From positions 62,001 through 126,000 of the forward strand of contig NZ_QEES01000005.1 of the NCBI RefSeq assembly GCF_003115775.1: a stretch of 64,000 nucleotides of DNA. The letters run 5' to 3'. This stretch comes from Cellulomonas sp. WB94. Lineage in GTDB: Bacteria > Actinomycetota > Actinomycetes > Actinomycetales > Cellulomonadaceae. The notes under the pieces were generated by a model. It made no database searches. It saw nothing but the letters and a program-made list of their open reading frames with translations, and was not told the origin of the DNA. Shown one piece after another: positions 47,210-63,842 of the stretch (its first letter is position 1; the number at the start of each line of letters is the position of its first letter). The position numbers and the translations under genes are program-made.

Positions 47210-47340
47210 CTCACCTCGAGCTCCGCGGGGGCACCCACCGTCGATCACCGTGGAATCCCGGTCGCGTCGTGGCGAGCCTGCGCCACGGTCAGACTGGCCG
47301 CCATGCGGGTGGCTGCCCTCGCTGGCCTGAGGTCTCGCCG

Positions 47341-48501: not shown

Positions 48502-49256
48502 CCGAGTCCGATCCGGTAGCCGACGCCGCGCACCGTGCGGACGTACCGAGGTGCGGCGACGTCGTCGCCCAGCTTGTGGCGGACGTGTCCGAGGTGGATG
48601 TCCACGATTCGATCCTCGCCGAACCAGTTCGGTCCCCAGACCCGCTCGATCAGTCGGGCTCGACTGAACGCCATGCCGGGACGGGAGGACAGGGCCTCCA
48701 AGAGATCGAACTCGATGGGCGTCAGAGCAACCAGCTGGTCGCCAAGCCACACCTCGCGGGCCTCGGGGTCGATCGCCAGGTCTCCGAATCGGCGCAGCGG
48801 TTCAGCGTCTGCGGGCGCGGCTGTCCCTGCGACGGCGGTCGCGGTCCGGGGCCGGCGCATCATCGAGCGGATCCTGGCGACGAGCACCCGCGCGGAGAAG
48901 GGTTTGGACATGTAGTCGTCGGCCCCGACTGACAGCCCGACAAGGGTGTCGATCTCCTCGGTGCGCGCGGTGAGCATGATGACGTACGCGTCACTGAACG
49001 TGCGCAGCTGACGGCAGACCTCGATCCCGTCGATCCCCGGCATCATCCAGTCGAGCACGACGACGTCCGGCGTGAACTCGCGCGCGAGGCGGAGCGCTTC
49101 ATTCCCCTCGGCGGCGGTGGCGACGTCGAAGCCTTCGCGCTCGAGATACGCAGCCACTACGCGGACCAACGCAGGCTCGTCATCGACCACCAGCGCCCTG
49201 ACGCGCGGCACCGGCGAGGGGCCCGCGTCAGACGTGGACCCCTCACGTGTCGCCAT
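48498..49256 (-). CDS. OmpR-family response regulator of the copper island
   Basis: 252 residues. Receiver domain with VVDDEPALVRVVAAYL, phospho-Asp in VVVLDWMMPG, Lys in YMSKPF, then a winged-helix effector (LTPIEFDLLEALSSRPGMAFSR, DIHLGHVRHKLG, VRTVRGVGYRIG). OmpR-type regulators bind tandem half-sites 10-11 bp apart. Six such direct repeats precede copper genes in this window, making this protein their likely reader. It has a 17-residue N-terminal tail. Cotranscribed with the kinase (ATGA). Confidence 0.88.
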   Translation of the reverse strand: MATREGSTSDAGPSPVPRVRALVVDDEPALVRVVAAYLEREGFDVATAAEGNEALRLAREFTPDVVVLDWMMPGIDGIEVCRQLRTFSDAYVIMLTARTEEIDTLVGLSVGADDYMSKPFSARVLVARIRSMMRRPRTATAVAGTAAPADAEPLRRFGDLAIDPEAREVWLGDQLVALTPIEFDLLEALSSRPGMAFSRARLIERVWGPNWFGEDRIVDIHLGHVRHKLGDDVAAPRYVRTVRGVGYRIGLG

Positions 49257-49358
49257 GCTCGAAGCCTCTCCCGCATCGTCGAATCTCTAGCCGCGAGTGC
49301 AGCGCTCCCCGGGACCCTCGCCTTGCCCTACCTGGCTCAACAGCACTGGGCGACGACG

Positions 49359-50015
49359 TCAGGAGACGGTCAGCTCGGTAGACATCCCTGCGCCGTAGTG
49401 ACCTGGAAGGTTGCAGACCAGTTCATAGCGCCCGGGCGCCAGAGTGAGCGTGACCCAACCTGAGGAACCCGGCCGGATACCGTCGCCAGCACCTGCGGCA
49501 CCGCTCGCGGAAGCCTCTCCGAGGCTGGCCTCCTCGTCTATCTTGGAGTCGGCACCGATCGGGCGCGTGCCCGCCCTCTGGTTGTCACCCAGCGGGAGGA
49601 TGACCAGCTCGTGCTCGATGTTGCCGAAGTTCGTGGCCACGAAGGACACGCTCCCCGCGGGCACGGTTATTCGGTCAACGCTCAGCCGCATGACACCGCC
49701 GCCCATGTGGTTGCGGCCGCCCATCATGGGGCCGCCCATCATGGGGCCGCCCATCGTGGGGCCGCCCATCATGGGTCCCCCCATGCTGGTCAGGGATACA
49801 TTCACGACAGCTCCTGGCAGATCCGGAACTGCCTGAGATGTGCCGGAGAGGAAACCGGAACCGGCAGCGCCGAGCCGGGTCCTGGTGGTGGCCGCGGCGC
49901 CAGGACCGAAGGCACCGGCCCACGCCGAGGCCGCCAGCACGGAGCCGAGCAAGACCGCGACCGCGACGGTCAGTGCCGCGATCAGCCAGCCCCGCCTGAC
50001 CGTCGTCGCCATCAT
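49359..50015 (-). CDS. Plastocyanin-like cupredoxin with Met/Gly repeats
   Basis: 218 residues. Signal/anchor span LIAALTVAVAVLLGSVLAA, then a Met-rich repeat (residues about 75-105; MGGPMMGGP units), then a cupredoxin domain. The type 1 copper ligands are visible: His in GNIEHELVILP, and Cys, His and Met in LVCNLPGHYGAGM. Extracytoplasmic copper binding or electron transfer is expected, and the Met repeat would bind Cu(I). Its start overlaps the SHOCT gene, with a regulator box further upstream. Confidence 0.8.
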   Translation of the reverse strand: MMATTVRRGWLIAALTVAVAVLLGSVLAASAWAGAFGPGAAATTRTRLGAAGSGFLSGTSQAVPDLPGAVVNVSLTSMGGPMMGGPTMGGPMMGGPMMGGRNHMGGGVMRLSVDRITVPAGSVSFVATNFGNIEHELVILPLGDNQRAGTRPIGADSKIDEEASLGEASASGAAGAGDGIRPGSSGWVTLTLAPGRYELVCNLPGHYGAGMSTELTVS

Positions 50016-50284
50016 CGGCTACCACGGGCGGCGATCAGCGCCGCGCGCTGCGCCTGGTAGGTCGCGAGGTCGATCTCACCGGCGGCGAACCTACGGTCGA
50101 GAATGTCCAGCGGCGAGTCCTTGCCCGACACCTCGTGCGGCGGTGTCGTCGTCGCACCCGAGTGCGAGCTCGACGGGAGCAGCCGGACCAGCAGCCAGAT
50201 GATCGCTGCGATCAAGATGATCCAGAACAGCCCCATGAAGATCCACGCGCCGCCACCCATGCCGCCTCCATACCAACCCATCAT
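50012..50284 (-). CDS. Small membrane protein with SHOCT domain
   Basis: 90 residues from ATG 50284 (or 50281). A Gly/Met/Trp-rich start (MMGWYGGGMGGGA), one membrane span (WIFMGLFWIILIAAIIWLLV) and a C-terminal SHOCT motif (PLDILDRRFAAGEIDLATYQ). Such proteins commonly accompany copper-resistance genes in actinobacteria; the role is unknown. First gene of the unit with the cupredoxin. Confidence 0.75.
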   Translation of the reverse strand: MMGWYGGGMGGGAWIFMGLFWIILIAAIIWLLVRLLPSSSHSGATTTPPHEVSGKDSPLDILDRRFAAGEIDLATYQAQRAALIAARGSR

Positions 50285-50363
50285 GTCCGTCTCCTTCGCT
50301 CGTGTACGTGACTTCGGTATGCCACCAGCGTCTCGCCTCGATACGAGGAAGCCCCCGAGGAAC

Positions 50364-50381
50364 GATGAAGTTCCCGCAAAG
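50364..50381 (-). promoter_or_regulatory. Response-regulator box 1 (SHOCT/cupredoxin unit)
   Basis: On the gene strand CTTTGCGGGAACTTCATC: half-sites CTTTG and CTTCA 11 bases apart, 79 bases before the start codon. The weakest of the six copies, 12 of 18 matches to the box at 57269. Confidence 0.45.
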
Positions 50382-50531
50382 ATCGGGCGGCACTCGGGCG
50401 CCATCGTGCCGATGTCAACGCGCTCGCCGAACTACGTGAGCGCTGAGTCAGTGCGGGTGGCGGTGCCGCGCGTCGGGGTAGTGCTCGTGCGGGTGCTCGG
50501 CGTCGTGGGTGTGCCGGCATCACGCGCCGCC

Positions 50532-51734
50532 TCAGTTCTCCTGGACTGCTCGGGCGAGCGCGTCCGCCGACGCGGTCACGTCACTCTCCGTCGTCCACCT
50601 GCCCAGCGTGAGCCGCAGGGCGGAGAGCCCGCGCTCGCGACTCATGCCCATCGCGCTGAGCACCGGGGACGGCTCGTAGTCCCCCGAGTGGCACGCTGAC
50701 CCGGTCGATGCGGCCACCGCAGTGCACGACTCGAGGACGACGTGGCCCTCGACGCCGTGGATGCTGACATTGAGGGTCTGCGGCAGTCGCGGTGCCCGTG
50801 CGCCGTTCAGCTCGACCTGACCCGGGAGGCGCATCTCCAGCTCGTGCTCGAGCTGGTCTCGCAGCGCCTCAAGACGGATGGGCGAGCCTGCTGCCAGCTC
50901 GGCACGAGCCAGGTCGGCCGCGGTGCCGAGCGCGACGGCGCCGGCGACGTTCTCAGTCCCGGCCCGTCGGCCGCTCTCCTGCCCGCCGCCACCGACGAGA
51001 GGCTCGAGGTCGACGCCGGACCGCACGTACAGGGCAGCGATGCCCTTGGGCGCGTACATCTTGTGCCCGACGACCGTCAGCAGGTCGACGCCGAGCAGCG
51101 CGACATCGACGGGGATCTTGCCCACGCTCTGAGCGGCGTCGGTGTGGAACATCGCACCGTGATCATGCGCGACTCGTGCGAGCTCGGCGATGGGCTGGAT
51201 GACACCGGTCTCGTTGTTGGCATGCATGACGGAGACCAGGACGGTCTCCGGACGCATCGCGGCCGCGAGCTCGGCCGGGTCGACCAGGCCGTCGTGATCG
51301 ACGCCGATCACCGTGATCTCGGCACCGTGGTGGCGTTCTGCATAGCCGCACGCGGACAGCACCGCCGGATGCTCCGTCGACTGGGTGATGACGTGCGGGC
51401 GGGTGACCCCGGACCGGCGGGCAGCGGCCACCGTGCCCCGGATGGCCGTGGCGTCTGCCTCGGACCCGCTGCCCATGGGCACCACCTCGTCGGCACGCGC
51501 GTCGATGAGCGCGGCGATCCGCGCCCGTGCCGTGTCGAGAGCCGCGTGCGGCACCCGGCCGTAGCCGTGGGCGCTCGAGGGGTTGCCGAAATGCGTCGTC
51601 AGGTACGGCAGCATCGCCTCGACCACACGGGGGTCCACCGGGGTCGTGGCGTTGTGGTCCAGGTAGATCGGGCCCCCGCGCAGGCCCTCCGGCAGCTGCG
51701 GCGCAGTGGTCGCCCGGCTGGGCGATGCGGTCAT
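50532..51734 (-). CDS. Cysteine desulfurase-like PLP enzyme (IscS/NifS family)
   Basis: 400 residues from the ATG overlapping the TusA stop. Class V aminotransferase fold: IYLDHNATTPVDPRVVEAML, HTDAAQSVGKIPVDV, PLP Lys in VVGHKMYAPKG, and catalytic loop TGSACHSGDYEPSPVL with the persulfide-forming Cys. It would mobilise sulfur from cysteine to TusA. Last gene of a sulfur-transfer operon (ArsR-rhodanese, DsrE, SQR, TusA, desulfurase). Confidence 0.87.
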   Translation of the reverse strand: MTASPSRATTAPQLPEGLRGGPIYLDHNATTPVDPRVVEAMLPYLTTHFGNPSSAHGYGRVPHAALDTARARIAALIDARADEVVPMGSGSEADATAIRGTVAAARRSGVTRPHVITQSTEHPAVLSACGYAERHHGAEITVIGVDHDGLVDPAELAAAMRPETVLVSVMHANNETGVIQPIAELARVAHDHGAMFHTDAAQSVGKIPVDVALLGVDLLTVVGHKMYAPKGIAALYVRSGVDLEPLVGGGGQESGRRAGTENVAGAVALGTAADLARAELAAGSPIRLEALRDQLEHELEMRLPGQVELNGARAPRLPQTLNVSIHGVEGHVVLESCTAVAASTGSACHSGDYEPSPVLSAMGMSRERGLSALRLTLGRWTTESDVTASADALARAVQEN

Positions 51735-52024
51735 CGGACGACCTTCCATGGTGCGTCGGTGCGGGTGGGAAGTGGGGTTGCGGTGATCTGGACTGCATAC
51801 GTCGGCCTGCCTGGACCCGGCACGGCTCCGAGGTAGGTATGTCCGGTCAGCCGGCACCAGGCGGGCAGGTCGATCGGTGCCACAGGGTCCGTCGTCGTCA
51901 GGTGGATGACGGCCTCGTCCGGGAGTCCAGCAGCAAAGTCACGCAACAGCAAGAGCAGCCGTGCGCACCCGAGGGCTCCGCCGTCGAGCTGGTGCACGCC
52001 CTGCTCGCCGGGCGTGCTGCTCAT
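51731..52024 (-). CDS. TusA-family sulfur carrier
   Basis: 97 residues from ATG 52024 (GGGG five bases upstream). TusA fold: HQLDGGALGCARLLLLLRDF (active Cys; the usual CPxP is GCARLL) and LTTTDPVAPIDLPAWCRLTG. It would pass persulfide sulfur between the desulfurase, DsrE and rhodanese proteins of the same operon. The loss of the CP motif proline is a deviation from canonical TusA. Confidence 0.75.
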   Translation of the reverse strand: MSSTPGEQGVHQLDGGALGCARLLLLLRDFAAGLPDEAVIHLTTTDPVAPIDLPAWCRLTGHTYLGAVPGPGRPTYAVQITATPLPTRTDAPWKVVR

Positions 52025-52043
52025 GTCGTCCCCGGGCACGCGG

Positions 52044-53204
52044 TCACAGCCATCGGCGCATCACCTCCTGCTCGAAGGCGACCTTGCCCAGGTGCCACCG
52101 GCGGGCCGGCGGGCGGACCCGGATCGAGGGAGACGGTTCGGCGTAGAAGTCGCCCGACCCGTACCCGGCGCGTCCGTCGCCGACCTCGATGAAGCACCCG
52201 CCGCGCGCGTCGAACCGTGCTGTGGACGGCCTGCCCGTGATGCTCGAGACGATCGCGTCGGCAACCACTTTGCCCTGGCTGTGCGCGAAGATGCCCGCCC
52301 GCGGCAGCGGCTTGCCGATGCCCAAGAGCATCTGCACGTTGTCTCCGATGGCGTAGACGTTCTCATACCCGGTCCACAGCGTCTCGCGATCGACCTCGAT
52401 CCACCCGCCCGGGCCGGCGAGAGCCGAGCGCGCGATCACGGCCGGTGCAGCGATCGGAGGCATGTACGCCAGCAGGTCGAACGCCTCTGTCTGGCCGTCA
52501 TAGAACACCGCCTGACCAGTGTCGGCCGACGCGATCTGGTGGTTGGGCCGGTACGAGATCCCCCTGGCTGCCAAGAGACCCTTGACCGCTTCGGCGACGT
52601 TCGCTCCAGCGACACCCATCGGCATCGGTTCCGCCGCGTGCACCGCGACCTCGACGCGGTCCCGGACGCCGCGGCTGCGCAGATGCGCGTCGATGAGGAA
52701 GGCAGCCTCGTACGGAGCCGCCGGGCAGCGATAGACGGGACCCGCGGTCACCACCAGGATCCGACCGTGGTCGATCGCGTCGAGCTCGATCCCGAGCCTG
52801 CGCGCGCCTGGCAGCGTGGCAAACGTCTCCCCCGCCTCGACCATGCCAGGAATGATCTGCGGCACCTGCTCGGCTCCAAGTGCAATCACCAGATGGTCCG
52901 CCGTCAGCTCGCGCCCGTCGACAGTGGCGGTGCGAGAACGGGGCTCAATCGACTCGATGTCGCCGATGACGACCTCGATGCCGCGCCGCGTCAGCCCCTG
53001 CAGCGGGCGGGTGACCTGCCGTGGGGTGCGCTTACCAGTCATGACCCACAGGTAGGACGCAGCGAAGCTGAAGGTCGGGTCACGATCGACCAGCACGACA
53101 CGGTGGCGACGATCCAGCTTGCGTCGCAGCCGGTTCGCCGTGACAACCCCGCCGATGCCACCGCCCAGCACCAGGATCGTCTGCCCAGTCGGTGCGCCGG
53201 CCAT
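52044..53204 (-). CDS. Sulfide:quinone oxidoreductase-like flavoprotein
   Basis: 386 residues from the ATG overlapping the DsrE stop. FAD-binding ILVLGGGIGGVVTANRLRRK, the SQR landmark TFSFAASYLWVMTGKR, a Cys in VYRCPAAPYEAAFLID and a second FAD motif YAIGDNVQML. A further Cys lies in RGGCFIEVG. Type unclear (membrane SQR or FCSD-like), but the cysteine pattern fits sulfide or persulfide oxidation at the membrane. Confidence 0.82.
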   Translation of the reverse strand: MAGAPTGQTILVLGGGIGGVVTANRLRRKLDRRHRVVLVDRDPTFSFAASYLWVMTGKRTPRQVTRPLQGLTRRGIEVVIGDIESIEPRSRTATVDGRELTADHLVIALGAEQVPQIIPGMVEAGETFATLPGARRLGIELDAIDHGRILVVTAGPVYRCPAAPYEAAFLIDAHLRSRGVRDRVEVAVHAAEPMPMGVAGANVAEAVKGLLAARGISYRPNHQIASADTGQAVFYDGQTEAFDLLAYMPPIAAPAVIARSALAGPGGWIEVDRETLWTGYENVYAIGDNVQMLLGIGKPLPRAGIFAHSQGKVVADAIVSSITGRPSTARFDARGGCFIEVGDGRAGYGSGDFYAEPSPSIRVRPPARRWHLGKVAFEQEVMRRWL

Positions 53205-53554
53205 CAGAACACCAGCACCTTGTCTGCCGCCAGGGTCAGGGTCGCGAGATCCTCCATCGTGGACCGGCTGGCGTGCTCCATCAGCAGGTCCTCGCTGATG
53301 CCGCGGGCATCCATGCAGGTACCGCAGCACAGGATCTGCCCGCCGTTGCGCGGCACGATCGAGATCATGCGGTCGAGCCTGTAGTAGCCGTCCGGAGTCT
53401 TCTGGTTCTTCATCGCGACGGTGACGCCGTCGCCCATCAGGAAGACCCGCACCGTCACCTCATCGCGCTTGGCCAACGCCGCAGCCAGGCGCACCGCGTT
53501 GTAGGTGACGTCGGCACCGTAGGCCGCACCATTGATGATCATCAGAACGTTCAC
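53204..53554 (-). CDS. DsrE-family sulfur-relay protein
   Basis: 116 residues from GTG 53554 (AGGAGAG five bases upstream). DsrE/F fold: VLMIINGAAYGADVTYNAVRLAAAL, VRVFLMGDGVTVAMKNQKT, and a Cys cluster ILCCGTCMDARG as the persulfide site. Coupled to the SQR gene by a four-base overlap. Confidence 0.82.
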   Translation of the reverse strand: MNVLMIINGAAYGADVTYNAVRLAAALAKRDEVTVRVFLMGDGVTVAMKNQKTPDGYYRLDRMISIVPRNGGQILCCGTCMDARGISEDLLMEHASRSTMEDLATLTLAADKVLVF

Positions 53555-53639
53555 AGGTCTCTCCTGGTGGTGGGGTGGGCAACTGTGGAATCTGTGGGGT
53601 GGGAACCTCGGCGTCGGCGACCGGCACACGGCAGCGCGG

Positions 53640-54312
53640 TCACGAAGCCGCGCCGATCTCGATGGGCTGGCCCGCCCGTCGCCACTCGTCGACACCGGCG
53701 TCCAGGCGTTGCGCCGGGACGCCGACGGCACGCAGCCGGCGAACCGCAGCTGCGGACAGCACGCAGTACGGACCACGGCAGCACGCGACGACCGTCGACC
53801 CTTCCGGAAGCTCGGAGATCCGTCCGGCGAGGTCTGCCAGCGGCATGCTCAACGCACCGGCGATGTGCCCCGCCGCATACTCCTCCGGCGGACGCACGTC
53901 GACCACGACGACGTCACCGTGCGTGCGGCGCTCGAGCAGCTGGGCGATGTCGAGGGGCTCCACGCCGTCGACCTCGCCGAAGAAGGCCTCCGCGAGGTAT
54001 CGCACCTCGGCGATACGCGACTCGGCGACCTGCCGCAACGACCGGTAGGCATCAAGGACGGTGGGGTCGGCCACCCGATACACCACGCGCTGCGCGTCAC
54101 GCGAGGAGGTCACCAACCCCGCGTTCCGCAGAACCTGCAGGTGGCGAGACGTGTTCGCGACCGTCATCGACGTCTGCGCGGCGATCGACTCCACCGAGCG
54201 CGGTCCCTGCGCGAGCAGATCGACGACCTCGAGCCGCTTCGGGCTGGCGAACGCTGACGCCACGCGCGCGAACTGCTCGAACACCGCGTCCTTGAACTCC
54301 CTGCCCTCCACG
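53640..54312 (-). CDS. ArsR-type regulator fused to a rhodanese domain
   Basis: About 223 residues from GTG 54312 (GGTGG upstream); a TTG start at 54335 is possible. Winged-helix ArsR part (ASPKRLEVVDLLAQGPRSVE, then MTVANTSRHLQVLRNAGLV) and a C-terminal rhodanese (VVVDVRPPEEYAAGHIAGAL, active loop ACCRGPYCVLSAAA). Such fusions are thought to sense persulfides or sulfite through the rhodanese Cys and to repress the adjacent sulfur genes. First gene of the operon running left to 50532. An A/T-rich promoter segment with TATAGT lies around 54346-54351. Confidence 0.85.
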
Positions 54313-54396
54313 CCACCACCCGATCTCGTATTCAATGGATCAATAGACTATACGAATCGAGCGGATTCGGTAGGACGCCTCGACCGGTCGACACGG

Positions 54397-54591
54397 CTAG
54401 GGGTGCCGCCGAACAGGGGCGGCCAGGGTGGAGTGCACCGGCCCGAATTCGGTCACCAGGTGGAACAGGTTGTGCGCCAGGTGCGCCGCAACGTCCAGCG
54501 CGGAGCCGAACAGGACGGGGCGCAGGCGACCCTGCGCTGGTCGACACCGGCACCATCCAGGTGCCACGTAATGGCTCTGACGGACGAGCAC
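54397..54591 (-). pseudogene. Possible remnant of a membrane protein gene
   Basis: A 64-residue frame ends with ALDVAAHLAHNLFHLVTEFG, which looks like the last span of a multi-span membrane protein. No complete gene surrounds it. It could be debris between the DUF3105 and ArsR-rhodanese genes, or a fortuitous frame. Confidence 0.25.
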
Positions 54592-54612
54592 GCCGACTGC
54601 TGCCCTGCAGCG

Positions 54613-55251
54613 TCAGCTGGCGCCGACACCACCGGAGCACGCCGCGCCGGGCTCCGGCGTCTGGGGGCCATTCGCGTACTTCGCGACGAACGCCGGCAGC
54701 CGAGGATCGGATGCGCTGCTCATGGTCAGCTGCAAGCCCCACGCGCTCGCCACCACCGGTGAGCTCAGCCCCGGGAACGGACTGAGCAGGCCGTACGAGT
54801 TCTTGCCGACGACGCCGGCAAGGATCGCCACCTGGTCCGCGGGCAGGTCGGGGCTGTACGTCACCCAGACCGCGCCATGCTCGAGGGAGTGCACGGCCTG
54901 CTCGTTCTTCACCGGCGTCGTGTAGACGCCGCAGTTCGTCAGGGTCTCCGCGTGGTCGCCGCCCACGGGCGGCGTCTGGGGGTAGGTCACGGCCCCCACC
55001 ACGTGGTCGCGCGCCAGGTTCGGGTACTCGGTCACGCCCGCGATGGGCGCGCTCGCGGCTGCAGCGAGCTCTGAGTTGCGTGCCTGCTGCCGGACGAGCA
55101 CGGCCGCCGTGACACCGCCCAGCACCAGGACGAGGACGACCACTACGGCCGTGACTAGCGCCGTCCTGCGTCGTTCCTGACGCTTCTGCTCGGTGCGCAT
55201 GGCGTTCACCAGGACTGCACGATCAGTTGCCTGCTTCGCGCGCTTGCTCAC
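54613..55251 (-). CDS. DUF3105 membrane-anchored protein
   Basis: 212 residues from GTG 55251 (GAGGAG five bases upstream). A basic N-terminus, one span (ALVTAVVVVLVLVLGGVTAA), then a DUF3105 domain with conserved HVVGAVTYPQTPPVGGDHAE, NCGVYTTPVKNEQAVHSLEHGAVWVTY and a C-terminal Cys. The His-rich motifs look metal-binding. DUF3105 proteins often sit beside multicopper oxidases in actinobacteria, as here. A regulator box lies 150 bases upstream. Confidence 0.8.
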   Translation of the reverse strand: MSKRAKQATDRAVLVNAMRTEQKRQERRRTALVTAVVVVLVLVLGGVTAAVLVRQQARNSELAAAASAPIAGVTEYPNLARDHVVGAVTYPQTPPVGGDHAETLTNCGVYTTPVKNEQAVHSLEHGAVWVTYSPDLPADQVAILAGVVGKNSYGLLSPFPGLSSPVVASAWGLQLTMSSASDPRLPAFVAKYANGPQTPEPGAACSGGVGAS

Positions 55252-55566
55252 GTGACTCCTCAGATTTCGGACGGTGCGCCTCAGCGACCGCACACGAGAC
55301 GACCTATCAAGGCGAGACTCGCTTCGCCCCTGCCCGGCGCCGACACACGCGTAGGCACCGACCACACTCCACCCCCAGTGTGAAGTCTCGAGCCGGAGCC
55401 GATGAAGATCCGATCAAGACCCCGTGAGCTCGGTCGCGACGGAGTCGGCCGACGCGCCTGGATCGATGACTCACGCTTGGAGGCCTGACGACCATCGCGT
55501 CCATTGACTGTGTCGAGCACGAGTCGTTGTAGCGGAGCGTTGTCGTCCCGAGCGGCGCTGTAGGGC
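55252..55566. other. Region between DUF3105 and multicopper oxidase genes
   Basis: 315 bases without a gene. Holds the leftward regulator box at 55401-55418. No clear terminator for the oxidase gene was found. Confidence 0.5.
55401..55418 (-). promoter_or_regulatory. Response-regulator box 2 (DUF3105 gene)
   Basis: On the gene strand CTTGATCGGATCTTCATC: half-sites CTTGA and CTTCA, 11-bp period, about 150 bases before the start codon. Confidence 0.6.
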
Positions 55567-57186
55567 TCATGCGACGTACGACAGGACGGTCATCATGCCG
55601 AGCTCGGCGTGGTAGGTGTTGTGGCAGTGCAGGGCCCACTGACCCGGGTTGTCGGCCTGCAGGTCGACGGCGACCGTTCCCATCGGCAGCACGTTGATGG
55701 TGTCCTTGCGGATCCCCGGGCGACCGTTCGCGCCCACGAGTGCGAACGTGTGCCCGTGGAGGTGCATGGGGTGGAACATCATGGAGGCGTTGGTCATGAC
55801 CAGCCGGACGCGCTCGTCGGCACGGACCTGCAGAGCATCGTGGTCGCCGAATGGCGCGCCGTTGATGAACCACTGCCGCCCGCCGTCGACCATCTGCAGG
55901 TTGAGCTCGAGCTCGCTGTCGGGTGCCCGTGACTCGAGCGCCGCTGCCGCTGTCGGGGTGAGGTCGGCGTAGGCGAGGAGGCGACCCTCGAGCTCGGCCG
56001 GCCGGGCGTCTGCGGGCGGTGTGGGACCGGACGCGGTTCGCAGGACGGCCGCTGCTGGTGCAGCGGCTTTGCCCTCCGGCACCGCCACGATGGGGAAGGC
56101 TCCGTCGCCGGCCGTGATCACGACGTCGTAGCGCTCGCCCATGCCGAGGATCAGCGTGTCGACCTCGAGGGGGTCCACGGGGAAGCCATCGGTGTGGGTC
56201 ACGGTCAGGCGGTGACCTCCGACGGCGAACCGGTAGGCGGTGTCGCTGCCGGCGTTGATGATCCGCAGCCGGATCCGCCGACCCGGTGAGGCGCTGATGA
56301 CGAAGGGATCTTGCGGGGGTCTGCCGTTGATGAGATGGACCGGATAGGCGACGTCGCCGGTGTCCGCACCGAGTGGCCGATCTGCCGACGGCATGCTGTC
56401 CGACATGGACATCGAGCCCGTGTCCGACCCACCCATCGCCATGCCGTCCATCGCCATACCCGCCATCGACGAGCCCGACATCGTCATGCCGTCTCGCTTC
56501 ATCCGCGCGAGGATCTGGTCCGGGGAGTCGCCCCAGCCGTCGGTCCAGTCGTCCAGCACCAGGACGACCTCCTCGTCGTAGCGTCCCGGCTCGTTGGGAT
56601 CCTCGACGATGAGGGGGGCCTGGAGTCCGGTGTCGAGCTGGACCCCGACATGGGGGTGGAACCAGTAGGTCCCTGGGTGGGGAGCCACGAACGTGTAGTC
56701 GAAGGTGTCGCCGGCCGCGACCGCGTCCTGGGTGATCCCCGGGACGCCGTCCATGTCGTTGCGCAGAGAAATCCCGTGCCAGTGGACGCTGGTGGGCGCC
56801 GGCAGACCGTTGCTCAGACGGATCCGGAGTTCGTCCCCAGCCTGCACCCGCAATTCCGGGCCTGGCACTGTGCCGTCGAAGGCCCACGTCTGCACCGTCC
56901 TGCCCGCGAGGTCGATCGTGGTCGGAGCAGCCCGAAGCTCACGCCGAACGATGTTCCCCGTCGAGTGCCGAGCAGCCTCGGTCGCGGCAACGATCGCGTC
57001 GGCTGGGCCGACAGGTCTCGACGCACCGAGGAGTCGCACCCCGGCGAACGCACCAGCTCCCACGACGACGACGCCCGCGGCTCCGAGCTGCAGGAATCGG
57101 CGGCGATCGAGCCCCCTGGCCGAGCGGATCACAGACGGTCGGGACGTCGAGGCCAAGTCGGACTCCAAAGAACGGAAGGAACGCAT
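55567..57186 (-). CDS. Multicopper oxidase (CopA/CueO type)
   Basis: 539 residues. Twin-arginine signal (LDRRRFLQLGAAGVVVVGAG) for folded export. All four copper motifs are present: VHWHGISLRND, TYWFHPHVGVQ, FHPMHLHGHTF and LHCHNTYHAELGMM (type 1 Met). Residues about 232-260 form a Met-rich insert (GMAMDGMAMGG), as in Cu(I)-oxidising enzymes. It would oxidise Cu(I) to less toxic Cu(II) outside the membrane. A regulator box lies 82 bases before the start. Confidence 0.93.
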   Translation of the reverse strand: MRSFRSLESDLASTSRPSVIRSARGLDRRRFLQLGAAGVVVVGAGAFAGVRLLGASRPVGPADAIVAATEAARHSTGNIVRRELRAAPTTIDLAGRTVQTWAFDGTVPGPELRVQAGDELRIRLSNGLPAPTSVHWHGISLRNDMDGVPGITQDAVAAGDTFDYTFVAPHPGTYWFHPHVGVQLDTGLQAPLIVEDPNEPGRYDEEVVLVLDDWTDGWGDSPDQILARMKRDGMTMSGSSMAGMAMDGMAMGGSDTGSMSMSDSMPSADRPLGADTGDVAYPVHLINGRPPQDPFVISASPGRRIRLRIINAGSDTAYRFAVGGHRLTVTHTDGFPVDPLEVDTLILGMGERYDVVITAGDGAFPIVAVPEGKAAAPAAAVLRTASGPTPPADARPAELEGRLLAYADLTPTAAAALESRAPDSELELNLQMVDGGRQWFINGAPFGDHDALQVRADERVRLVMTNASMMFHPMHLHGHTFALVGANGRPGIRKDTINVLPMGTVAVDLQADNPGQWALHCHNTYHAELGMMTVLSYVA

Positions 57187-57268
57187 CGGAACGCAGCACG
57201 GGCCGTGGGCTGGCGCTGTGCGGCTCCGTGAAACCTACGCAGCCGGGACTAAGGTCCTACGAAGCATC

Positions 57269-57286
57269 CATGAAGATTCGCTGAAG
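57269..57286 (-). promoter_or_regulatory. Response-regulator box 3 (multicopper oxidase)
   Basis: On the gene strand CTTCAGCGAATCTTCATG: two CTTCA half-sites 11 bases apart, 82 bases before the start codon. Confidence 0.65.
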
Positions 57287-57417
57287 GCTCCGACCCTGAG
57301 TCGGAGCCGGCCCCGACTGGCGCGGCGCCGACGCGGGCGAGCGCACCCGTGCCCCAACCGGCGCTGTCGCGACACGCCCGAGACCGGCGCAAGAGCATGC
57401 CGGCAGGCACTGAGCTA

Positions 57418-57435
57418 CTTCGCCGAATCTTCATC
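57418..57435 (+). promoter_or_regulatory. Response-regulator box 4 (divergent membrane protein gene)
   Basis: CTTCGCCGAATCTTCATC on the plus strand, 61 bases before GTG 57497. It faces away from box 3. Confidence 0.6.
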
Positions 57436-57496
57436 CGTTCTCAAGCGGATGGGCACGATCCTGCAGCAACCATCGAATGTGAGAACAGACGACACG

Positions 57497-57904
57497 GTGA
57501 CACCCCCGGCCCAGGGCGCCTCGTTGGCTGACGAAGGACACCCCGAAGGCGACCAGCCCCCACGGCGCCGCACGGCATGGACCTTCTTCACAGGAGCCGT
57601 CGGCGGTGTCGTCGGGCTGGCCCCTCACGTCCTGCACCACATCGGACCGCTCATCGGCACCGCACTGGTCGCCGGTGCTGGAGGCACGGCGCTGTTCGGC
57701 GCCCTGGGTCTCCTCGCGTCCGTGCCGATGCTCATCAAGCTCAGACGAAGATTCTCCAACTGGTGGGCCCCGGCGATCGCCCTGGGCGTCTTCACGGCGA
57801 TGTTCCTGATCTCCGCCTTCCTCATCGGCCCCCTCATCAGCTCGCCTGCAGGATCCGGCCCGGACGTCTCTCCGGTCGACCACGTCTCGCATCACGCGCC
57901 GTGA
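57497..57904 (+). CDS. Small multi-span membrane protein of the copper island
   Basis: 135 residues from GTG 57497; ATG 57449 is in frame but would leave only 13 bases after the regulator box. Three to four spans with LAPHVLHHIGPLIGTALVAG, TALFGALGLLASVPMLIKL and LGVFTAMFLISAFLIGPLI, a His-rich first loop, and a His-containing tail (VDHVSHHAP). No named family is recognised. The paired His and the regulator box support a metal-related role. Confidence 0.6.
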   Translation: MTPPAQGASLADEGHPEGDQPPRRRTAWTFFTGAVGGVVGLAPHVLHHIGPLIGTALVAGAGGTALFGALGLLASVPMLIKLRRRFSNWWAPAIALGVFTAMFLISAFLIGPLISSPAGSGPDVSPVDHVSHHAP

Positions 57905-57949
57905 GGATTGCCTGCGGCAGAGCCGGACACCACCGTTCGACATTTGACG

Positions 57950-58428
57950 GAACCGGAATCTTCGCACCAGGCCGCGCCAGCAGGAGGTCCCCCACCTGCA
58001 CGTCAGCCGTCGGGACCTCGACGGGCTCGTCGCCGTGCAGGACGAGGGCCGTCGGCGGGGCGAGCTCGAGCAACGTCCGCACCGCGTCGTTGGCCCCACC
58101 GCGGGCGCGCATCTCGAACCAGTGCCCGAGCAGCACGAATGCGGTCAGCACTGTCGCCGCCTCGTAGAAGACCTCGCCACCGCCCGTGAGCGTCACGCCC
58201 AGGCTGTAGACCCACCCGGCGCCCACGCCGACGGCGACGGCGACAGCGACGGCGACGAGCACCATCATGTCGAGCGTCCGTGCGCGCAGCGCCCGGTAGG
58301 CACCCTCGAAGAAGATCCACGCCGAGTAGAAGGTCACCGGCAGCGACAACACCAGCGCGAACACGTCGTCGCGCAGACCGAACGGCGCGGCCACTTTGAA
58401 CCCGAGCACCTTCCGGCCGATCGGCGAC
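57950..58428 (-). pseudogene. Internal fragment of a copper P-type ATPase (CopB-like)
   Basis: The frame shows only the second to fourth spans and the start of the actuator domain: FGLRDDVFALVLSLPVTFYS, LDMMVLVAVAVAVAVGVGAG, GGEVFYEAATVLTAFVLLGH, then LLLARPGAKIPV, where homology stops. The N-terminus, phosphorylation domain (DKTG), ATP-binding domain and C-terminal spans are missing. A stop precedes the fragment. The full-length ATPase is the next pump gene. Confidence 0.75.
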
Positions 58429-58479
58429 TACAGGTCACCAACTCGACACTGCCGTGCGAGTCCAGGATCCCGTCCGAGC

Positions 58480-58761
58480 TCAGCTGCGGACAAGTCGTGT
58501 GATCGCGTCGGTGGCTTCCTTGAGCTTGGCGTCTCGCGCTGCTTGGTCGAGCTCGCCGTCAGCGGCAAAGCAGTGGTTCATGTGGTCAGCGAGCAGCTCC
58601 AGGGCCACGGACTGCAGGGCCCTGGAGGCCGCTGCGATCTGGGTGAGGACGTCAATGCAGTACTGGTCGTCCTCGACCATCCGTGCGATCCCTCTGACCT
58701 GACCCTCGATGCGGTGCAGTCGGTTGAGGTGTGCGCCCTTGGTCGCGCTGTACCCGGCCAT
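58480..58761 (-). CDS. csoR: CsoR-family copper-sensing repressor
   Basis: 93 residues. DUF156/CsoR helix bundle: HLNRLHRIEGQVRGIARMVE, the copper-ligand Cys in DDQYCIDVLTQI and the His/Cys pair in LADHMNHCF, i.e. the C-H-C set. CsoR leaves DNA on binding Cu(I). A matching palindrome is at 61928-61942 before the HMA gene. Its gene lies just downstream of the ATPase gene and may be cotranscribed. Confidence 0.9.
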   Translation of the reverse strand: MAGYSATKGAHLNRLHRIEGQVRGIARMVEDDQYCIDVLTQIAAASRALQSVALELLADHMNHCFAADGELDQAARDAKLKEATDAITRLVRS

Positions 58762-58819
58762 CTCCTTCTCCTGTCGCGTGATGGTGGGTGATGGCCGGGC
58801 CGGCGGTCAGCGCGGCGAC

Positions 58820-59002
58820 CTAGTGGGTGTGGGTGTGCTCACCACTCGCCAGGTACTTCCCAGGGTCGGCGGTGAAGTCCGCGTGGCAGCCGCGGGAGCA
58901 GAAGTAGTAGGTGGTGCCCTGGTGCTCGACGCTGGCGGCGGCGTGGGCAGGTTCGACGCTCATCCCGCAGACGGGATCGGTGAGGGTGGTGTGAGCGGAC
59001 AT
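58820..59002 (-). CDS. Possible internally initiated YHS-domain peptide
   Basis: Within the ATPase frame, GGAGG (59008-59012) stands six bases before ATG 59002. It would give a 60-residue metal-binding peptide ([19 protein letters not shown]) ending in HTHTH. It may be a fused former gene with its start signals kept. Confidence 0.35.
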
Positions 59003-61581
59003 GGTTTCCTCCGATTGATCATCTGTTCCGATTTCGACCACCGGTTCGGTGACCGAGACTGTGACGTCCGCAGTGATGGCGGGCGGGGTGAACCGGCGCA
59101 GCCTGTTGGCGTTGGTCACGACGGACAGGGACGACAGTGCCATCGCGGCCGCGGCGATCATCGGGCTCAACCTCAGGCCGAAGGCGGGATACAGCGCGCC
59201 CGCGGCGATGGGGATGCCCAGCCCGTTGTAGACGAAGGCGAAGACGAGGTTCTGGCGGATGTTGGTCATGGTGGCCCTGGACAGGTCAAGCGCCGTGACC
59301 AACCCCGACAACGCGCCGGAGATCAGCGTGATGTCCGAGGACTCGATGGCCACGTCGGTGCCGGTGCCGATGGCGAACCCGACATCAGCCTGTGCCAACG
59401 CAGGTGCATCGTTGATTCCGTCACCCACCATGGCCACGACGCGCCCCTCAGCCTGCAGGTGCTCGACCTCACGCGCCTTGTGCTCGGGCATGACCTCGGC
59501 GACGACCCGGCGAATACCGACCTGCCGGGCAATCGCGGCCGCGGTGGTGCGGTTGTCTCCGGTCATCATCACGACGTGAACACCACGAAGCTGGAGCGCA
59601 ACCACGGCGGCTGCCGCGCCGTCCTTGACGGTGTCGGCCACGGCGATCACGCCGGCCGGACGGTCGTCGATCGCCACCAGCATCGGGGTCTTGCCGTAGG
59701 CGGCCAGACGGACCTGGTCCGGCAGCAGGATCGCGGTGTCGATCCCTGACCCCATCAGGAGCCGTGCGTTGCCCACCAGGACATGGTGGCCGCGCAGTCG
59801 TGCACCTACGCCCTGGCCGGTGACGGAGTCGAACTCGGACACGTCGTCCAGCGGCAGACCGCGCTCCTGGGCACCGGCGACGATCGCCGCGGCCAGGGGG
59901 TGCGCGGAGAAGCGCTCGACCGAGGCGACCAGCTGCAACACGTCGTCCGCCGCAAAGCCGGGGGCGGGCAGGACGTCGGTCAGGACCGGGCGTCCCTGGG
60001 TGATCGTGCCGGTCTTGTCCACCACGACCGTGTTGAGCTTGTGCGCCGTCTCGAGCGCCTCCGCGGAGCGGATCAAGATGCCCGCCGTCGCCCCCTTCCC
60101 GGTACCCACGGTGATCGACAGCGGCGTGGCAAGCCCCAACGCACACGGGCACGCGATGATCAGGACCGAGACTGCCGCGACCAGCGCGAAGACGAGGGCA
60201 GGCGGGGGGCCGACCAACGCCCAGACCACGAACGTCCAGATCGCGATGCCCATGACCGCAGGGACGAAGTAGCCCGATGCCTTGTCGGCGAGGCGCTGAA
60301 TCGGTGCCTTCGAGCCCTGCGCCTGACGCACCAGGTCGATGATCTGAGCCAGCAGCGTGTCCGAGCCCACCTTGGTCGCCACGTAGCGGAACGTGCCCGT
60401 CTGGTTGATGGTCGCGCCGATGACCACGTCGCCGGCCGACTTCGTCACCGGGATCGACTCACCGGTCACCATGGACTCGTCTACGGCTGAGCGGCCCTCG
60501 AGGATCTCGCCGTCGACCGGGAGCTTCTCCCCCGGCCGCACGACCACGACGTCCCCGACCACGACCTCGTCGATCCCGATGTCCACCTCGGTGCCGGATC
60601 GCACGACGCGCGCAGTCCGCGGCGCCAGGCCGATCAAGGTCCGGATCGCTTCGCCGGTCCCGGCCTTGGCTTTCGTCTCGAACAGGCGACCGAGCAGGAT
60701 CAGGGTGATGATCACGCCGACGGCCTCGTAGTACACCTCGCGGGTCTCGACGGGCAGCACACCGGGAAGGGCAGTCACCACCACGGAGTACCCGAACGCG
60801 GCAATGGTGCCCAGCGTGATCAGGGAGTTCATGTCAGCGGTGCGATGCGACATGGCCTGCCACCCGGTGCGGTGGATCGGCCAGCCCGTGTAGAACATCA
60901 CCGGAGCGATCAGGGCGAGCTGGACCCAACGGTTCATCAGGACCGACGGCACCCAGTCGGCCCCGAACAGCGACACGGCCATGACGGCGACCAGGACGGC
61001 GCGGTCAGGACCGCGCCCCACACGACCCGGCGCCGCAGGTCGGCGATCTCGGCATTGCGCTCGGCCGCCTCGTCGTCCTGCGGCTCGGCGAGAGAGCTCG
61101 GCCGGCGCGGCACAGCAACGGTCACGGTGGTCTCGACATCGTCGCCAGCGGGTAGCGACCTCACACTGCTGCCCGCAGGGACGACGTGGGCCTCGGCTGG
61201 CGCGACGCCATCGACGACCTGCAGACGCCCTCGAACCATGTTCATGCCGCACGCGAACTCGAAGGAGCCCACCCGATCAGGCACCAGGTCCACCGCCGTG
61301 GTCGCGTAGGCCGGCAGCAGCTGGTTGACCCGGAAGTCGGGCATGACCACCCGGGACGTGCAGTCGCCCGACTCCTGACGGTCGAACTCCATCCGTACCG
61401 GTACACCGCGCACGACCTGGATCACGTCCGGGCTGTAGCCACCCTGGACCTTGATCTTGACGACCTGGACTCCTTGGTCGACCTGGGCCACGCGCGCCTT
61501 CTTGGGGCCGAAGAAGAACCAGCCCAGTCCGCCCGTCAGGACCACAGCCGCCACAACGATGACGATCTCGCTGCCGCTCAT
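58820..61581 (-). pseudogene. copA: Cu(I) P-type ATPase with N-terminal cupredoxin and C-terminal YHS domains, frameshifted
   Basis: From ATG 61581: one span (IVIVVAAVVLTGGLGWFFFG), a cupredoxin domain (YSPDVIQVVRGVPVRMEF, then [14 protein letters not shown]) and [13 protein letters not shown]. One base is lost near 61000, within the first ATPase span. The next frame carries the complete pump: [15 protein letters not shown] (copper site), [35 protein letters not shown]. It ends with a YHS domain ([29 protein letters not shown]). The pump alone could start near 60985. An SD-ATG (59002) could also yield the YHS part separately. Confidence 0.85.
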
Positions 61582-61599
61582 CAGATCACGCCTCCACAG

Positions 61600-61899
61600 T
61601 CATGTTGATACGCGCGGACTGGCCCAGGTCGGGGAGCAGCGCTGGGGGGGTGGTTCATGGGTGCAGCTCAGCGCCCACCGATCCGGCCCCGCCACCACGA
61701 ACCCGGCACGCCTGACCGCCGCTCGAACCTCGACCGCACCGAGGACCGTGATGCTCGTCAGGGTCACGGGCGATAGCCCGCCCTTGACGAGGTCGACGGC
61801 GACGCCTGTCACGCCGTCCAGCGCGCGCAGCTCCTCAAGCACCTCGGCCAGGCACGACCCACAGGTCAGCCCCTCGACGACGAATGTCGCGACAGTCAC
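61600..61899 (-). CDS. HMA-domain copper chaperone-like protein
   Basis: 99 residues from GTG 61899 (AGAGG eight bases upstream). Heavy-metal-associated fold VATFVVEGLTCGSCLAEVLE with the CxxC copper pair (CGSC), then VTGVAVDLVKGGLSPVTLTS and VRAAVRRAGFVV. The last 25 residues are unlike the family. It would deliver Cu(I) to the ATPase just downstream. Preceded by both a CsoR-type operator and a regulator box. Confidence 0.85.
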   Translation of the reverse strand: MTVATFVVEGLTCGSCLAEVLEELRALDGVTGVAVDLVKGGLSPVTLTSITVLGAVEVRAAVRRAGFVVAGPDRWALSCTHEPPPQRCSPTWASPRVST

Positions 61900-61927
61900 G
61901 TGCCCACCTCTCCACACGCCCCCCGGG

Positions 61928-61942
61928 TACCCCCGGGGGGTA
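61928..61942. promoter_or_regulatory. CsoR-type operator
   Basis: TACCCCCGGGGGGTA, a G/C-run palindrome of the kind bound by CsoR, 29 bases before the HMA start codon. Confidence 0.65.
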
Positions 61943-61985
61943 TGTCCAATCTACTCCCGGGGATGTGGCGTTTCGAGGCAGCAAC

Positions 61986-62003
61986 CATGAAGATCCGATC
62001 AAG
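61986..62003 (-). promoter_or_regulatory. Response-regulator box 5 (HMA/ATPase operon)
   Basis: On the gene strand CTTGATCGGATCTTCATG, nearly identical to the box before the DUF3105 gene; 86 bases before the HMA start. Confidence 0.65.
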
Positions 62004-62296
62004 GATCGGCGCGCCCTCCGGTTCACTCACGGATCGAGCGGCTGAACGCCCGGCCCGCGCGCCACAGCCCGTCGCCGGCGACTCCTTCCCGACGCCGGTC
62101 GGCGCCCGGTTTTCCTGATGGGGCTCACATGCTCAGCGCAAGCTCGGGATCGACGGCGGTAGGACAGCCACGCTCGAACCGCATGCGCTCGACAACTGAC
62201 ACCACATGCCATGGGTCCGCATCGACGGCGGCCCGCTGACCTCGGTCCGGGGGGACATCGCACGCTCTGGTCCCGAGCTCATGCCTGGGAGCGAAC

Positions 62297-62314
62297 CTTC
62301 AGCGAATCTCCATC
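62297..62314 (+). promoter_or_regulatory. Response-regulator box 6 (His-rich peptide gene)
   Basis: CTTCAGCGAATCTCCATC on the plus strand, 150 bases before the start codon; first half-site and linker identical to the oxidase box. Confidence 0.6.
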
Positions 62315-62464: not shown

Positions 62465-62794
62465 ATGAAGCACAGCGGCGCGGGCCACCTCAAGGGGATG
62501 GCACTGATAGCGGGCGGGGCCTTCGTTGTCCTCCTCCTGCTCGGCAAGCCGGCCGGCGAAGCCTTCAGCTACGCCCTGGCTCTCGCATGCCCGCTGATGA
62601 TGGTCGGCATGATGTTTGGCGGGCACGGTGGGCACGGTGGCAGCGAGGACAACGCCGGACATGACGGTCATGCAGGTCACGGTGGCGCAAGGGGTAGCGA
62701 GACAGATCTCGGCGCGCGGCAGGCTGTCCCGGGAGACACCGGGATCATCGACGCCCCCGCGACGAGCGATCGCGCCCAGGGCCACCACCACTAG
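62465..62794 (+). CDS. Membrane peptide with His/Gly-rich tail (DUF2933-like)
   Basis: 109 residues from ATG 62465. Two hydrophobic spans (MALIAGGAFVVLLLLGK and YALALACPLMMVGMMFGG) and a tail with repeated HGG/GHGG units (GGHGGHGGSEDNAGHDGHAG) ending GHHH. This is the look of small copper-island proteins such as DUF2933 members. The His-rich tail would bind metal; side unknown. Confidence 0.65.
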   Translation: MKHSGAGHLKGMALIAGGAFVVLLLLGKPAGEAFSYALALACPLMMVGMMFGGHGGHGGSEDNAGHDGHAGHGGARGSETDLGARQAVPGDTGIIDAPATSDRAQGHHH

Positions 62795-63029
62795 CCGCTC
62801 TGGCTCGTGACGTCGGCGACGCCTGCGTGGAGACGCTCAGGCGTTTCCACAGCGGCTGGTCGACTCATTCGACGACGCCTAGCGGCCTCGGTGTCGGAGC
62901 CGTGCGCTGGCTACCGCTGCATCTTCATTGAAGAACCATCGATCCTGTGGACGAACCTTCATTTCACCCGGCGACGATGTAGCGGGTTCGGACCTGTGCG
63001 ACCGCATCAGACCCCGCCGTATACCCCCG

Positions 63030-63842
63030 ATGATCGGAGACCTTGTGCGTCCGGTGCTGTTCTCGATCTTTGGCCTTGACTTCTCGTCCTACGGCGCAAG
63101 CAAGGCTATTGCCGCGCTTGTCGCGGCGTACCTGCTCGGCCGCGCTTTCGAGCGAGTCGGACTCCGCCGTGACTCGGCCCACTCGCTCGTGCTGTGGGCC
63201 ACCGTGTGGGGCTTTGTGGGCGCGAAGATCTACTACCTCCTCGAGCACATCGACACCCTCAGCCTGCATCATTTTGGTGGGATGGGATTCACCTGGTATG
63301 GCGGCCTCATCGGCGGTGTCATCGCCGCTCTCGTCATCATCCGACGCCACCATCTTCCGCTCGGAGTTGTCGCCGGCGCCACGGCCATTCCGCTGACTCT
63401 TGCCTACGGCATCGGGCGCATCGGCTGCCTGCTCTCCGGCGACGGCACCTACGGCAAGCCGACCTCGCTGCCCTGGGCCATGACGTTCTCCAGCGGAGTT
63501 GTCCCCACGACCGTCCCCGTTCACCCCACTCCCCTGTACGAGGCCTTGGCGTCGCTCGTGATCGCCGCCGTGCTGTGGGCGCTTGCCCGACGGTGGAACC
63601 CTCCGACCATCTTCGGCGCCTACCTGATCCTCAGCGGGATCTCACGGTTCCTTGTCGAGATGCTGCGCATCAATGAACCTGCGCTCTTCGGCTTGACCCA
63701 GCCTCAGCTGTGGTCGATCGTCTCGATCGCGGCCGGCGCTCTACTGATCGCCCGCACGAACCGCTCGATCGGCGCTCGGACGACAGTCGCGGCGGGCACT
63801 GAGCCCCTGATCACCGAGAGCTCGTCAGCCTCCCGCGGATGA
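63030..63842 (+). CDS. lgt: Prolipoprotein diacylglyceryl transferase (Lgt) family protein
   Basis: 270 residues from ATG 63030. Seven-span Lgt fold with WATVWGFVGAKIYYLLEHI, MGFTWYGGLIGGVIAALV, YGIGRIGCLLSGDGTYGK (Lgt signature Arg/Gly) and VHPTPLYEALASLVIAAVLW. It transfers diacylglycerol to lipobox Cys. An accessory copy in a copper island may serve island lipoproteins. Upstream TATACCCCC and CTTCATTGAAG resemble half operators. Confidence 0.8.
   Translation: MIGDLVRPVLFSIFGLDFSSYGASKAIAALVAAYLLGRAFERVGLRRDSAHSLVLWATVWGFVGAKIYYLLEHIDTLSLHHFGGMGFTWYGGLIGGVIAALVIIRRHHLPLGVVAGATAIPLTLAYGIGRIGCLLSGDGTYGKPTSLPWAMTFSSGVVPTTVPVHPTPLYEALASLVIAAVLWALARRWNPPTIFGAYLILSGISRFLVEMLRINEPALFGLTQPQLWSIVSIAAGALLIARTNRSIGARTTVAAGTEPLITESSSASRG

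Follow-up and report, generated by a model that had tools for sequence, protein, structure and literature searches.

Copper genes in a 64,000-nucleotide stretch of Cellulomonas sp. WB94 (contig NZ_QEES01000005.1, positions 62,001 to 126,000; the whole stretch is here called the window) are preceded by copies of an 18-bp element that is, judged by its sequence, the CopR box of Corynebacterium glutamicum, TGAAGATTTnnTGAAGATTT. At one copper-pump operon the box is accompanied by a perfect CsoR-type operator, the predicted site of the copper-sensing repressor CsoR, and the same pairing recurs at copper-pump promoters of related genomes, often at a near-fixed distance. The box is probably bound by a CopRS-type regulator and combined with the CsoR operator at pump promoters. 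The sites, the operator, their spacing, their co-occurrence, and the gene order can be read directly from the DNA.

The CopR box and its sites

The reverse complement of the element equals the box TGAAGATTTgaTGAAGATTT, which phosphorylated CopR binds in C. glutamicum according to gel shift and mutation work (PMC3140484; PMC3353115). The kind of system is therefore already known. A first-pass annotation of the window had placed six copies at 50364, 55401, 57269, 57418, 61986, and 62297, and all six sequences are present there. As an observation this is partly confirmed. Five of the sites score far above chance, and the one at 50364 is at noise level by score. Four of the six (55401 and 57269 on the minus strand, 57418 and 62297 on the plus strand) lie within three mismatches of the 18-mer given in that annotation, with 0.00 expected from 100 dinucleotide shuffles, and the sequence at 61986 is identical to that at 55401 except for the last base.

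With a position matrix built from 94 sites in other genomes of the family, the scores in the window are 32.7 (57270), 28.1 (55402), 28.1 (61987), 26.8 (62297), and 21.3 (57418). All five of these strong copies are intergenic and lie between 55401 and 62314. When the 3,868,980 bp of the genome were scanned with the consensus ATGAAGATYCGMTGAAG, 10 sites were found at two mismatches or fewer, every one of them in a copper island. Contig C5 has eight of these, five inside the window and three just past its right end, and contig C2 has the other two. At three mismatches or fewer, there are 18 sites against 2 for the reversed pattern. The first-pass annotation had missed the three further C5 sites and the two on C2; it also did not recognize the element as a published box or notice the CsoR-type operator next to 61986.

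The best box (57269-57286, minus strand) faces the gene for a CopO-like multicopper oxidase with three Cu-oxidase domains (55567-57186, minus), the genome's only match at E<=1e-20. The box at 55401-55418 (minus) faces a gene for a membrane-anchored DUF3105 protein (54613-55251, minus; likely start GTG 55251; Pfam E 6e-45), and the one at 57418-57435 (plus; two mismatches) faces a small membrane protein gene (57497-57904, plus) with homologs in L210 and L211. At 61986-62003 (minus) the box serves the copper-pump operon, and at 62297-62314 (plus) it faces the gene for a His-rich small membrane protein (62465-62794, plus; Pfam DUF2933, 25.3 bits). The gene identities given earlier are borne out by Pfam, except that the small membrane protein has no Pfam or NCBIfam match and the SHOCT protein discussed below reaches 23.4 bits against a curated cut-off of 27. 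That each box faces the next gene is likewise true in the window, but in relatives copR and some ATPase genes stand on the other side of the box.

The 11-bp register proposed for the element is correct: across 44 sites, only the half-site offsets 0 and +11 are common, and the runners-up, -22 and -3, occur in 11%. The proposed half-site CTTCA is looser, the first halves being CTTGA at 55401 and 61986, CTTCG at 57418, and CTTTG at 50364. The element is better described as TGAAG half-sites paired at 11 bp, in keeping with a 9-bp tandem repeat with a 2-bp linker, and the second half-site is frequently kept only as TGAAG. Longer arrays of 11-bp half-sites were also considered. Such an array is visible at the multicopper oxidase, where the 32.7 box is followed gene-ward by two weaker repeats at 57259 (14.2) and 57248 (5.9), and the same series (32.7, 12.2, 5.9) is found at locus L209 of G013, yet arrays are rare among the 44 sites; because so few offsets beyond 0 and +11 occur, the element is a pair and not a long array. 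An insertion-sequence or repeat artefact as the source of the box is ruled out by the differing intergenic regions and by the co-occurrence with the regulator.

The box and CopR-type regulators across relatives

A scan of named genomes for the exact published motif gave at least 114 stretches, 80 of which were listed. In 11 of the 12 Actinomycetes loci chosen from these by title, the motif directly precedes a gene for a CopR homolog (the sequence of L078 breaks off at that end); the other 68 listed loci, mostly from other phyla, are expected to be chance matches. Among 150 genomes of the family, the box occurs at one mismatch or fewer in 32 and the reversed pattern in none, while a CopR-type regulator (E<=1e-70) occurs in 42. 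The regulator was found in 31 of the 32 genomes with a box, and the one genome without it, G113, is 72% complete (Fisher p = 1e-21, not corrected for phylogeny). Homologs of the copper cluster lie within 1.3 kb of 24 of the 29 box loci outside the genome itself, near-copies included. As at 55401, a box is directed toward the DUF3105 gene in G013 (L209), whose protein is 88% identical, and in G118 (L129), where the identity is 43%; among the papers searched, none mentioned both DUF3105 and copper. Boxes of a SHOCT unit and a glutaredoxin-CcdA unit are also found on C5 or C2.

Some of the counts point the other way. Eleven of the 42 genomes with the regulator have no box at one mismatch or fewer (in six of these, a box with two to three mismatches lies upstream of copR), 5 of the 29 box loci have no copper-cluster homolog in a count made without a random-locus control, and the 57418 box and most of the targets are seen in one or a few genomes. 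Another possibility is that the repeat is the site of some other OmpR-family regulator, for example of the MtrA or PhoP type, and is not specific to copper. Direct repeats are common among OmpR-family sites, and the window regulator scores best against the NCBIfam models for MtrA, CseB, and others, without reaching the cut-off of any of them. However, the published MtrA site is a different 8-bp repeat, and the box follows CopR-type regulators and copper genes, which makes this alternative very improbable. The copper regulon, the OmpR-family regulator, and the 11-bp direct-repeat geometry of the first-pass annotation thus gain computational support from the equality with the published CopR box and from the co-occurrence in the family; its interpretation as a whole is supported in part.

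A predicted CsoR operator at copper-pump promoters

A perfect CsoR-type operator, TACCCCCGGGGGGTA (61928-61942), separates the box at 61986 from the copper-pump operon and is 44 bp gene-ward of the box (61987-62003). It is the sole match in the window at two mismatches or fewer, with 0.11 expected, and is a TAC-X9-GTA inverted repeat with G-tracts, the form described for the CsoR operators of Streptomyces lividans (PMC3902906). The run of minus-strand genes downstream encodes an HMA copper-chaperone-like protein (61600-61899; likely start GTG 61899; Pfam HMA), a cupredoxin-like domain (60937-61581; Pfam Cupredoxin_1), a P1B-type copper ATPase with a C-terminal YHS domain (58820-61252; TIGR01511, 600 bits), and, as its last gene, CsoR (58480-58761; Pfam Trns_repr_metal). 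The best solved relative of this CsoR is 4adz (98.8 bits), with which its Cys and His-x3-Cys positions align; these we take to be the copper ligands.

The spacing between box and operator recurs in relatives. The operator pattern TACCC-N5-GGGTA, counted up to 300 bp from 51 distinct boxes, was found near 8 of them, with gaps of 44-47 bp in seven. A scan of 221 family genomes for box-operator pairs with gaps of 30-60 bp found 18 pairs. With the box in one orientation there are 10, from 9 genomes, and with the box turned round there are 8, from 7 genomes; the reversed controls gave 0. The gaps of the 18 pairs are 42 (twice), 44 (twice), 45 (three times), 46 (five times), 47, 49, 50, 57, and 58 (twice), that is, 15 at 42-50 bp and 3 at 57-58 bp. 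In all 18 pairs a P1B-type ATPase homolog lies downstream of the operator. This spacing suggests that the pumps answer to two copper signals.

Several points count against so simple a picture. The eighth operator, in Rhodococcus RHA1, is nearest at 85 bp, and the 18 pairs cannot be treated as independent, since 14 genomes of 4 genera supply them all. The gap range was picked after the first examples in relatives had been seen, the 18-pair and 8-operator counts share at least 4 sites, and the spacing evidence comes from related genera. At L132, what follows on the side of the operator looks on visual inspection like a gene for an FtsX-type permease and not an ATPase, and the CopB-type ATPase genes of C5 have boxes with no operator within 300 bp. 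It could also be argued that the near-fixed spacing is inherited sequence and not functional geometry, given the close kinship of several pairs (e.g., L228/L235, L230/L232, and L242/L243). The gaps nevertheless cluster at 42-50 bp despite both box orientations, different ATPase classes, and differing intervening DNA, and simple inheritance is considered rather unlikely.

In the proposed mechanism, CopS-like kinases would sense excess copper outside the membrane, and the phosphorylated OmpR-family regulator (CopR-P) would bind TGAAGAT-like half-sites in tandem at 11 bp and activate transcription. Its predicted targets are the multicopper oxidase, the DUF3105 protein, the cupredoxin/SHOCT unit, small membrane proteins, and its own operon. 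Many copper-exporting P1B-ATPase operons, including 61899-58480, have the box paired with a CsoR-type operator that lies some 45 bp closer to the gene, where CsoR, encoded in the same gene run, may hold the core promoter of the pump until Cu(I) inside the cell rises. Since box and operator occur together, pump promoters would need both CopR-P and the release of CsoR by cytoplasmic Cu(I). We favor, with moderate confidence, a two-input promoter in which CopR-P, reporting copper outside, would sit some 45 bp ahead of an operator for CsoR, which reports copper inside, mostly for cytoplasmic exporters, with the oxidase and extracytoplasmic genes having the box alone. Binding, activation, the copper response, the AND logic, and the assignment of the four CopRS-like pairs to the sites are what we infer from this layout. 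Among the matches listed in the literature search, none put CopR and CsoR on one promoter by its title or the opening of its abstract, which does not show absence in print.

Two oddities of the pump genes can be recorded here. The cupredoxin-like N-terminal part of the ATPase (60937-61581) and the remainder are in different overlapping frames across 58820-61581, through either a sequencing error or a real break; in L210 and L211 the cupredoxin-like and ATPase matches abut with no overlap. A fragment of a second P1B-type ATPase at 57837-58409 is similar to the beginning of the ATPase that is intact on C2 (L001:11489-13864) and looks like a remnant.

Which regulator acts on the boxes

The first-pass annotation assigned the boxes to the regulator and kinase at 47341-49256. 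The assignment is plausible but not unique: the genome encodes three more CopRS-like pairs besides the one in the window, four in all (on C5 just right of the window, on C2, and on C7), and two of the others adjoin clearer boxes. The window genes are adjacent overlapping minus-strand frames for an OmpR-family regulator (48498-49256; Response_reg and Trans_reg_C) and a membrane histidine kinase (47341-48501; HAMP, HisKA, and HATPase_c), whose start, ATG 48501, overlaps the copR stop. The C2 regulator is 90% identical to that of C5, and the window regulator is about 60% identical to C5 and 75% to C7. To the regulators that stand beside perfect CopR boxes at the Corynebacterium and Rothia loci of the motif scan, the window regulator is about 50% and the C5 regulator 53-54% identical. 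In the CopS-like kinases, the extracytoplasmic loop is about 31 amino acids long by eye, close to the roughly 30 that mark CopS of the actinobacterial kind, and has two conserved His; F-x-x-H and H-x-x-E/Q-A-F/Y are present in 8 of the 8 kinases recovered of 15 sought, with no Corynebacterium row among them. NCBIfam has no CopRS model that the window proteins pass.

The boxes might belong only to the C5 and/or C2 pairs outside the window, with the in-window pair controlling something else. Both of those pairs adjoin clear boxes, and 28 of the 40 copR genes in their clade are preceded by a box (three mismatches or fewer), 28 of 28 in the C. glutamicum orientation (shuffles gave 0 of 51 on average); in the window clade, a box directly upstream of copR was found in 0 of 9. 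On the other side stand two genomes, G053 and G177, that have only window-clade regulators (E<=1e-60) and yet carry boxes on the same contig, although they are 91% and 88% complete, and G325, one of the five genomes in that check, gave 2 matches to the reversed pattern. The window block has a near-copy in G013, where the multicopper oxidase box is perfect, but a C5-type regulator is found there too. Window-type operons, moreover, begin at the SHOCT gene, where the position of the box is conserved. An exclusive role for the outside pairs is accordingly the less likely account, though a serious one. In a tree of 48 regulators (midpoint rooting, no outgroup), the Corynebacterium and Rothia set stands apart, and the regulator of Rhodococcus RHA1, a genome with boxes, clusters with the window clade (95/87). 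Because of the boxes in G053 and G177, the conserved position upstream of SHOCT, and the place of RHA1 in the window clade, we think that the window CopRS pair can act on these boxes, perhaps jointly with its paralogs.

The weakest site in the window is the one that heads this operon. The degenerate box CTTTGCGGGAACTTCATC (50364-50381, minus) stands upstream of the genes for a SHOCT small membrane protein (50012-50284, minus; likely start ATG 50284), a cupredoxin (49359-50015, minus; SoxE/copper-bind in Pfam), copR, and copS. The two-component genes had been said to lack a clear copy, which holds directly upstream of copR, where the best match has 5 mismatches, but leaves out that the unit is headed by the degenerate site at 50364. 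The best match upstream of SHOCT has the same orientation and lies 70-86 bp from the SHOCT match in all eight SHOCT-copRS operons of the window type (one in the window, one on C7 of this genome, and six spread over four further genomes, with two near-copy pairs among the eight), and in four of the eight it has three mismatches or fewer. SHOCT homologs occupy the same place in relatives. In G013, 47 of 47 bp around the site are identical, and a ninth locus, L213, which is not of the window type, has 5 mismatches at 94 bp. Doubt about the site comes from its score of 5.7, rank 12 in the window and thus at noise level, from its 5 mismatches, which 87 of 2000 shuffles equaled, and from the C7 and G047 window-type copies, in which no match at three mismatches or fewer was found.

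Comparison with known systems

The system resembles C. glutamicum CopRS (cg3285/cg3284), for which the literature describes an OmpR-type regulator and kinase, a TGAAGATTTnnTGAAGATTT tandem repeat in an 11-bp register, autoregulation, and control of multicopper oxidase and P-type ATPase genes. On C2, the box keeps the C. glutamicum orientation and stands at nearly the published distance upstream of copR. For C. glutamicum a single site is reported and CsoR has been proposed to control a separate ATPase, CtpV, whereas here there are 10 sites (at two mismatches or fewer), four paralogous pairs, and a box and CsoR operator in one promoter region. TAC-X9-GTA operators with G-tracts before copper ATPase operons and csoR are also described for CsoR/copZA in S. 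lividans, in an account that speaks of CsoR alone; what is added here is a CopR box some 45 bp away. E. coli CusRS and Pseudomonas CopRS are likewise two-component systems for extracytoplasmic copper. The window regulator falls far short of the Gram-negative heavy-metal model TIGR01387, with 144 bits against a cut-off of 279.

Surroundings of the copper island

Two blocks of the island (47337-50413 and 54612-57325) are 86-92% identical in DNA to G013:C2 (L209), from another genus of the family, which suggests a shared or transferred copper island. Between them, at 50532-54335, is a sulfur-transfer run (cysteine desulfurase, TusA-like protein, FAD/NAD(P) oxidoreductase, DsrE-like protein, and ArsR-rhodanese fusion) that is missing from the matching place in G013. 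The matrix scan found no above-noise site there, as the first-pass annotation had held. A Mutator-type transposase (44174-45406) lies left of the island and may point to mobility. The His-rich gene is followed by a gene for prolipoprotein diacylglyceryl transferase (Lgt; 62928-63842, plus; Pfam LGT; probable later start), and past the C5 copS a box with two mismatches (L002:13086) faces a gene with weak (34%) similarity to M15-type peptidases.

Significance

If the two-input arrangement is true, pumping would take place only when both compartments signal excess copper, or would be graded by both. It offers a testable model of how periplasmic and cytoplasmic copper signals may be joined at one promoter. 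A single-site system described in Corynebacterium would become a predictable, multi-site copper regulon for many actinobacteria, which unstudied families (DUF3105, small membrane proteins, and His-rich peptides) would join, and since a search of genome sequences for the box and the operator needs no experiments, the regulon could be traced in this way.

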